From: Kofleriaceae bacterium
GTDB lineage: Bacteria > Myxococcota_A > Polyangia > Haliangiales > Haliangiaceae
Length of the DNA: 64,000 bases
Reading direction: 5' to 3'
NCBI GenBank assembly: GCA_018058095.1
Contig: JAGPCO010000008.1
Location: forward strand, 49,997-113,996
Under the pieces are notes generated by a model. It was not told the origin of the DNA and made no database searches. It worked only from the letters and a program-made list of their open reading frames with translations. A program made the translations under genes and the position numbers. The stretch's first letter is position 1. Every line of letters starts with the position of its first letter. Shown piece by piece: positions 23,278 through 26,115 of the stretch.

Positions 23278-23985
23278 CAGCGTTCCCGCCCGCCGCGACG
23301 CTGCGCGTCCCGCCAGCGTTCCCGCCCGCCGCGACGCTGCGCGTCCCGCCCGCCGCGACGCTGCGCGTTCCCGCGCCAGCGTTCCCGCCCGCCGCGACGC
23401 TGCGCGTCCCGCCAGCGTTCCCGCCCGCCGCGACGCTGCGCGTCCCGCGCCAGCGTTCCCGCCCGCCGCGCAGCTGCGCGTCCCGCGCCAGCGTTCCCGC
23501 CCGCCGCGCAGCTGCGCGTCCCGCGCCAGCGTTCCCGCCCGCCGCGACGCTGCGCGTCCCGCCAGCGTTCCCGCCCGCCGCGACGCTGCGCGTCCCGCGC
23601 CAGCGTTCCCGCCCGCCGCGCAGCTGCGCGTTCCCGCGTCAGCGTTCCCGCCCGCAGCGACGCTGCGCGTCCCGCCAGCGTTCCCGCCCGCAGCGACGCT
23701 GCGCGTCCCGCGCCAGCGTTCCCGCCCGCAGCGCGTTCCCGCGTCAGCGCTCCCGCCCGCAGCGCAGCTGCGCGTCCCCGCGTCAGCGCTCCCGCCCGCA
23801 GCGCGTTCCCGCGTCAGCGCTCCCGCCCGCAGCGCAGCTGCGCGTTCCCGCGTCAGCGCTCCCGCCCGCAGCGCGTTCCCGCGTCAGCGCTCCCGCCCGC
23901 AGCGCAGCTGCGCGTTCCCGCGTCAGCGCTCCCGCCCGCAGCGAAGCTGCGCGTCCCGCGCCAGCGTTCCCGCGTCAGCGTCCTG
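23278..23985. repeat. Minisatellite of about 19-20 units of 31-39 bp
   Basis: The unit opens with CAGCG(T/C)TCCCGCCCGC and closes with CTGCGCGTCCCGC or TTCCCGC. Units begin at 23278, 23314, 23377, 23413, 23451, 23489, 23527, 23563, 23601, 23640, 23676, 23714, 23745, 23784, 23815, 23854, 23885, 23924, 23962 and 23976. Many units contain the palindrome GCGCAGCTGCGC. The left half has CCGCCGCG and the right half CCGCAGCG, and T changes to C in the opening motif from unit 13 on. There are no unique spacers. Unit lengths are not consistently multiples of three, so it is not coding. Confidence 0.9.
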
Positions 23986-24001
23986 GTCGTTGTCCAGGGC
24001 A

Positions 24002-24212
24002 CGGGGGACTCGCCGGCCTGCGCCAGGAGCGCTGCGCCGCAGGCGCACGCGACGCGGCGCGCAGGCCCCAGAGTCCCCCCGTCCGCGGCCTTCGGTCGCG
24101 GACCGCAGCCGCCTCCGGCGGCTGCGATTCGCACCGCGGCACGCCCCCCGGCCCCACACGGCCCGGTCCCCCGGGCCATGTGGGGGGCCGGGGGGCGTGC
24201 CGCGGTGCGAAT
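24002..24212. repeat. Four consecutive hairpins next to tRNA-Leu
   Basis: Hairpin 1 (24003-24079) has three nested stems: 24003-24011 with 24071-24079, 24015-24023 with 24059-24067, and 24033-24038 with 24042-24047. Hairpin 2 (24081-24103) and hairpin 3 (24105-24125) are short, with three-base loops. Hairpin 4 (24127-24212) has 29-base perfect arms (24127-24155 and 24184-24212) and an inner stem at 24160-24166/24171-24177. The right arm of hairpin 4 includes the 3' end of tRNA-Leu. Confidence 0.85.
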
Positions 24213-24287
24213 GGGGGGACTCGAACCCCCACGGTGTTACCCACTGGAACCTGAATCCAGCGCGTCTACCAATTCCGCCACATTCGC
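24206..24287 (-). tRNA. tRNA-Leu (anticodon CAG)
   Basis: The minus strand folds as a class II tRNA. The acceptor stem is GCGAATG with CATTCGC, followed by discriminator A. A D-arm with GGTAGACGC follows. The anticodon stem CTGGA/TCCAG encloses TTCAGGT, giving CAG in positions 34-36. A short variable arm and the T-arm GGGGGTTCGAGTCCCCC complete it. CCA is not encoded, since the genome reads ACCG. The tRNA reads CUG leucine codons, the major Leu codon in this GC-rich genome. Confidence 0.95.
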
Positions 24288-24318
24288 ATCCCCGTCAGCC
24301 GTGGCCGACGGGGGCATC

Positions 24319-24347
24319 TCAATACACAACTCCGGCGACCAACTCAA
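24319..24347 (-). promoter_or_regulatory. Possible promoter of tRNA-Leu
   Basis: On the minus strand TTGAGT (24347-24342), 17 bases, then TATTGA (24324-24319), about 31 bases before the mature tRNA 5' end. The leader contains a CCCGTC/GACGGG hairpin at 24291-24312. Confidence 0.4.
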
Positions 24348-24434
24348 GGGCCCACGCGCCATCCTGACGTCGAATCGTGCAAACGGTCGGTCACCACGCC
24401 AGCCGAAACGCTCCGGATCTCGGCCTCTTGGCGC

Positions 24435-24464
24435 TTGTACCGGGTTCCCGTCGCGATCTAACAT
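24435..24464 (+). promoter_or_regulatory. Promoter of the FHA-GAF-cyclase gene
   Basis: TTGTAC (24435-24440), 18 bases, TAACAT (24459-24464), about 22 bases before ATG 24487. A GGGGA purine run at about 24470 could serve as ribosome-binding site. Confidence 0.45.
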
Positions 24465-24486
24465 CCTCTGGGGACTGTCCTCGGCC

Positions 24487-26115
<1,629 letters not shown>

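Follow-up and report, generated by a model that had tools for sequence, protein, structure and literature searches.

In the window, by which we mean the whole 64-kb stretch of Kofleriaceae DNA that was analysed, the 3' end of the tRNA-Leu(CAG) gene runs directly into a block of consecutive hairpins, and we consider this block to be a real and striking lineage-specific structural mutation at the end of a tRNA gene, most likely the product of a template switch. More precisely, the reading that we favor, at a probability of roughly 0.6, is that the 3' end of the tRNA-Leu(CAG) and its trailer were duplicated in inverted orientation, in this lineage only, through a template switch. The block looks like a one-off oddity and not like a new genetic system. 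It would represent a clean bacterial example of how a 40-bp stem can be built by a single copying slip directly on a tRNA gene that is probably essential, and it provides a natural test of the amount of stable structure that tRNA 3'-end processing can withstand.

The tRNA-Leu(CAG) gene was located by a tRNA search on the minus strand (24287-24204). Its CCA end is not encoded, the sequence at this place being ACC-GCG. The tRNA is the only family that passes the Rfam gathering score at the locus, the matches to mir-3138 and mir-3943 being far under the threshold. This gene is also the only full-length tRNA-Leu(CAG) found in its genome, where a 75-nt tRNA-like gene with the same anticodon lies on contig C62. 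Given that no other full-length copy was found and that CTG accounts for 352 of the 579 leucine codons in four genes of the window, the gene is probably essential, which argues that tRNA processing tolerates the trailer stem. The window has a GC content of 72% and belongs to contig C68 of a draft assembly made of 227 contigs. The tRNA gene is neighbored by a gene for an FHA-GAF-cyclase (24487-26115, Pfam), and directly beyond the hairpin block, there is a minisatellite (23344-23973) with 17 copies of units of 38 bp, as well as of 31 and 70 bp. Contig C62 also carries an array of 20 tRNA genes (C62:80800-89200), many of which are low-scoring.

Following the tRNA strand, four hairpins succeed each other in the trailer, at 24212-24127, 24126-24104, 24103-24081 and 24079-24003, the initial annotation having likewise counted four. 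The largest one is an 86-nt near-perfect palindrome (24127-24212, minus strand), recovered both by the inverted-repeat search and by folding, and its 5' arm on the tRNA strand begins inside the tRNA itself (24212-24204). Its two arms (24127-24159 and 24180-24212) are 33 nt long, 97% complementary and separated by 20 nt; their outer 29 nt are perfectly paired, and 9 of these are the last nucleotides of the tRNA. A central 7-bp hairpin (24160-24166 with 24171-24177, span 24160-24177, minus strand) was noticed by reading and is paired in the fold, with a 4-nt loop that reads GGGA on the tRNA strand. As the 20-nt center is thus itself a hairpin, the 24127-24212 segment amounts to a single hairpin of about 40 bp with a 2-nt bulge.

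The inverted copy of the tRNA 3' end is carried by the plus strand in two parts. Part one, ATTCGCACC (24127-24135), matches the final 9 nt of the tRNA. It is followed by a 46-nt insert (24081-24126) in which two 23-nt hairpins stand side by side, at 24081-24103 and 24104-24126; both have a 10-3-10 organization, and the first includes one G-T pair on the plus strand. Past this insert, the copy takes up again at exactly the next base, nothing being added or missing, with part two, GAGTCCCCCC (24071-24080), which covers the 3' strand of the T-stem and the start of the acceptor. In total, the inverted copy takes in 19 nt of tRNA plus about 24 nt of trailer, and the 46 nt divide it into 33 and 10 nt. 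The idea of an inverted tRNA fragment interrupted by a two-hairpin insert holds. No target duplication flanking the insert could be seen by eye. At the far end, the last hairpin is imperfect (arms 24003-24023 and 24059-24079, minus strand, 21 nt, only 86% paired), and its outer end holds 10 nt of the T-arm in direct orientation (24003-24012, minus strand; CGAGTCCCCC as read along the tRNA), at about 190 bp from the tRNA.

The hairpin block as a whole is above chance. Its fold has a z-score of -12.2, and none of 200 shuffled sequences was as stable. Within a sample of the same genome, the 29-nt perfect arms are the longest inverted repeat, the next one reaching 22 nt (gap of at most 120), and in three Markov surrogates of the same size, the longest perfect-arm repeats measured 18, 18 and 16 nt. 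This sample gathers 60 stretches (1,177,143 bases, or 1.18 Mb) and is not a random one, being drawn from contigs with tRNA or block matches, the contig of the window included. As for GAGTCCCCCC, it occurs once per strand in the 64-kb window, in the block and in the tRNA, and the chance of meeting it at its fixed place is 8e-6 under the local composition. We also assembled 115 distinct pairs of a tRNA and its trailer, 68 from the same genome and 47 from relatives (32 of them Leu-CAG), from which trailers shorter than 120 nt had been dropped. Only the pair of the window shows an inverted repeat of more than 12 nt overlapping the tRNA 3' end; the Markov controls, five per pair (575), gave at most 14 nt at the tRNA end, and among the 47 trailers of relatives, the 32 Leu-CAG ones included, none has such a repeat above 9 nt. 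The block is not a type of terminator shared by every tRNA, which was the alternative that the initial annotation had envisaged. In the same genome, the trailers of a tRNA-Gly(GCC) and a tRNA-Lys contain inverted T-arm matches of 11 and 12 nt, which are near chance by a rough estimate.

The direct copy at 24003 belongs to another category. A direct match of at least 10 nt to the last 30 nt of the tRNA, within 1.5 kb, exists for 26 of the 115 tRNAs, and many of these matches come from neighboring tRNA genes. The copy that had been pointed out is therefore present over its 10 nt, at a level that is not above chance. Small hairpins also have to be considered against a rich background, as the sample contains 293 perfect stems of at least 10 (loops of 3 to 25), that is 249 per Mb vs. 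75 per Mb in the Markov control. Single 10-bp hairpins, including the two of the insert, are thus not rare in themselves in this genome, and this roughly threefold excess means that some process, selection included, favors stems here. No abutting pair of perfect small hairpins was found in the 1.18-Mb sample, a count in which the pair of the window does not figure because one of its stems is imperfect.

We then come to the distribution of the block. Among the best 40 of 201 blast candidates in its own genome, no second copy was found, the sole other match being one of 41 nt at 83% on contig C108, and an exact scan of the genome for hairpin B gave no second occurrence. In 35 relatives (up to 19 candidates being scored in each genome), the matches listed for the block were tRNA sequence and short low-scoring stretches; it had no blast match in phages or plasmids, and an exact 30-mer of the 46-nt insert was absent from viral contigs. 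An inverted TTCGCACC tRNA end was also sought across 192 genomes of the class with a pattern that can match solely tRNAs ending in TTCGCACC, other tRNA ends being outside its reach: at gaps of 45-75, it matched one genome, which is the own genome and served as positive control, and at gaps of 0-30, it matched none. By the measure that the initial annotation had itself proposed, which called for a search of other loci and relatives, the block is a one-off rearrangement.

The same locus can be followed in relatives through the FHA-cyclase gene, whose neighbors in sequence belong to Kofleriaceae and other Myxococcota drafts, the nearest with about 84% protein identity. Of the best 80 (of 169) FHA-cyclase loci, 25 have a tRNA-Leu(CAG), which lies on the strand opposite to the FHA-cyclase gene in 22 of them, as it does in the window. 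In 24 of these 25 loci, the Leu-CAG trailer forms a hairpin whose best short-loop stem measures 6-17 nt. Beside the same FHA-cyclase gene, relatives thus carry different trailer hairpins, most of them short, and the trailer of the window looks derived by comparison. A possible repeat family of the form GGGGACTC-N25-55-GAGTCCCC was considered and rejected: it matches 3 of 36 genomes, only one of them by a tRNA-Leu(CAG) (G009), and the pattern misses the own locus because the gap there is 59. In G009, the tRNA-Leu(CAG) is followed by GCGAAC, then by a hairpin and then by GGGGACTCG; its longest inverted tRNA match is 9 nt, and we did not count it as a second case since the shuffled controls also reach at least 9 nt in 13 of 575 instances. 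Two other relatives (G002 and G014) carry tandem second copies of the tRNA-Leu(CAG) with changed anticodons (TTG and TCG).

How could such a block be built? In the scenario that we propose, the 7-bp core at 24160-24177 would descend from a short hairpin of the ancestral trailer, and this hairpin would have allowed the nascent end of the tRNA strand to snap back during replication. The 3' end would then have been extended with its own 5' flank as template, over about 43 nt that cross the trailer and reach 19 nt into the tRNA; the resulting arms would be perfect over 29 nt, and replication would then have switched back. At a later stage, two short 10-3-10 hairpins would have arisen in the copy or entered it, perhaps from further small fold-backs, leaving the tRNA part as 9 and 10 nt, and the two inverted tRNA pieces would form the distal part of what was copied. 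A single event of this kind does not account for the 46-nt insert, which needs at least one more. Since the nearest FHA-cyclase neighbors are only about 84% identical and no close relative of the source genome was found among the genomes searched, the ancestor and the order of the events are not reconstructable.

Two features support this template switch in particular: a near-perfect reverse-complement copy adjoins its source (the 29-nt arms and the 10 nt in register), and it is absent from the same locus in relatives (47 trailers, 25 Leu-CAG loci). Template switches at E. coli quasipalindromes reportedly correct, in most cases, an imperfect repeat that already exists, whereas the block would have gained about 43 nt of new arm. 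What the block does share with the quasipalindrome-associated mutations of E. coli, for which this mechanism is described, is a hairpin at the replication fork and a template switch at an inverted repeat (PMC7202029). The mechanism is also described for RNA genes, in a study of template-switch mutations that give rise to RNA hairpins (Monttinen & Loytynoja 2022, PMC8794818): there, as in the window, one lineage acquires a perfect reverse-complement of adjacent sequence, which forms a long perfect stem in or beside an RNA gene. Those cases were reconstructed on a phylogeny, whereas the block is known without the sequence of its ancestor; the block also differs in being a bacterial case, in its overlap with the 3' end of a tRNA and in its interruption by a second pair of hairpins (PMC8794818). 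We searched the literature for tRNA trailers, for template switches in bacteria and for inverted duplications at tRNA genes, and there was no such case among the matches listed.

Other origins have to be weighed against the template switch. A chimera of assembly or amplification, in the form of a fold-back read, would be conceivable in a draft genome of 227 contigs, where chimeric joins can occur, and fold-back chimeras do make inverted joins; we hold this to be quite improbable, as the sequence runs on at both sides of the block and as the arms are short, are interrupted by an insert and contain a mismatch as well as a bulge, all of which is unlike a fresh fold-back read. The insert, compact and made solely of two equal-sized hairpins, had suggested a miniature mobile or REP-like element that came to rest beside the tRNA. 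MITE and REP-like elements are recognized by their several copies per genome, and the searches in the own genome, the 35 relatives, the phages, the plasmids and the viral contigs gave no second copy, within the limits given above; the mobile element is therefore unsupported, and we regard it as hardly credible.

An integration scar, in which elements with a tyrosine recombinase would have inserted at the 3' end of the tRNA-Leu(CAG) and then degenerated until tRNA fragments and hairpins were left, remains a rival because this tRNA is used as an attachment site in relatives. Indeed, one relative (G008) has a Phage_integrase gene (PF00589, E 1.4e-23) whose end lies at 7 nt from the tRNA-Leu(CAG) 3' end. 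In another (G011), a segment made of the final 27 nt of the tRNA and the 114 nt that follow it is found again, identical, on two further contigs (three in all); on one of these contigs, an integrase-like frame, identified by motif, ends at the shared tRNA segment, and on the other, the segment is joined to what appears by eye to be the body of a tRNA-Leu(TAG). Fragments of tRNA-Leu(CAG) of 24 to 61 nt also occur in G038, G040, G041, G042 and G043, and the own genome does have Phage_integrase genes, one piece of which (C225) lies beside another tRNA. The 10-nt direct copy at 24003 could be counted on the same side, but it is limited to the T-arm and at chance level. Islands are described by the Islander method as leaving direct copies of the tDNA with an integrase in between, and fragments in opposite orientation are rejected (PMC4383910). 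The resemblance to the islands so described lies in the tRNA fragments found downstream of a tRNA and in the use of tRNA-Leu(CAG) by relatives, whereas the main tRNA copy of the block is inverted and the window's contig has no PF00589 match (PMC4383910). The direct copy does not reach the end of the tRNA gene, and no integrase lies between the tRNA and the fragment, which are about 190 bp apart. The three PF00589 matches of the genome are on C107, C90 and C225, none being on C68, and the G008 integrase has a single weak match in the own genome (E 1e-4). What stands of the scar proposal is that relatives integrate elements at this tRNA, and the scar itself is, in our view, unlikely.

Several observations on integration were made along the way. 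Frames of tyrosine recombinases end beside the tRNA-Leu(CAG) or its fragments at three loci of relatives (L062 70-1494, L160 and L154, the Pfam assignment applying to L062 only), and at L159, another one ends beside a tRNA-Leu(TAG). The 22-nt matches in G012 and G001 (L158 and L159) were rejected as tRNA-Leu(CAG) fragments, as they sit in tRNA-Leu(TAG) genes. In the own genome, the Phage_integrase piece of C225 (22419-22571, PF00589, an open frame of 89 aa) lies about 170 nt beyond a tRNA-Gly(CCC) (C225:22179-22250) and is probably an integration scar at that tRNA.

Whatever its origin, the block could affect the transcript. In the initial annotation, the downstream arm was thought able to capture the acceptor strand of the tRNA precursor, and folding does predict this: capture of the acceptor, with the two insert hairpins forming a bulge, makes the full precursor more stable by 7.4 kcal/mol. 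One could then imagine that an invasion of the precursor's acceptor and T-arm by the trailer strand slows down the maturation of the main CUG-decoding tRNA, a view in line with the share of CTG among the leucine codons of the four genes and with the absence of another full-length copy among those found in the genome. With trailers of 130 nt, the predicted capture margin of this precursor is 14.7, the second largest of 112 folded precursors (3 of the 115 having been dropped for an N or a poor acceptor). Acceptor loss is also predicted in 27 of the other 111 precursors (mean pairing of about 0.0), one of them with a larger margin, so this prediction is not specific, is weak, and was rejected as a proof of function. 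Moreover, no conservation of the inverted copy of the tRNA end was found across the 115 pairs and the 192 genomes of the class, and the tRNA is transcribed before the invading arm. A slowing of maturation is, from these models, distinctly improbable. The more elaborate version, in which the antisense copy of the acceptor and T-arm, kept in register by its two-hairpin bulge, would form a self-capture switch setting the supply of the sole full-length CUG-decoding tRNA-Leu, seems very improbable. If the trailer did control maturation, this would be a new way to regulate tRNA supply. Any effect of the trailer stem on the maturation of the tRNA is best described as a putative side effect.

A more ordinary role can be predicted for the stem. 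No intrinsic terminator, in the sense of a G+C hairpin with a T-run behind it, was found in 23300-24700, and the window has a single T among the 14 nt that follow the best short-loop stem, when at least 4 are found in 14 of the 25 loci of relatives. We thus rejected an intrinsic terminator, there being no terminator-like site and only 1 T after the stem. Since a T-run terminator was not found, this very stable trailer stem probably stops or protects transcripts by its structure alone.

Trailers that hold a piece of their tRNA are known elsewhere. At E. coli tyrT (rtT RNA), the trailer holds direct tandem repeats that carry a piece of the tRNA 3' end. The block resembles tyrT in that its trailer repeats hold such a piece, and it differs in that the repeats of tyrT are direct and in tandem, whereas the copy in the block is inverted and single. 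A trailer of the own genome resembles tyrT more than the block does: on contig C32, a tRNA-Gly(GCC) is followed by repeats of about 108 bp, each with 21 nt of the tRNA 3' end, which surround an assembly gap of 100 N. Direct copies of their own 3' end are also found downstream of a tRNA-Glu(TTC) on contig C93 (21 nt, at 60 nt) and of a tRNA-Gln(TTG) on contig C100 (13 nt, at 20 nt). Finally, five loci of the own genome (L092, L096, L098, L128 and L077) share a repeat family with ends like GCAGGCTGCTGAAAAACCCG, which is probably a transposon-derived miniature element.
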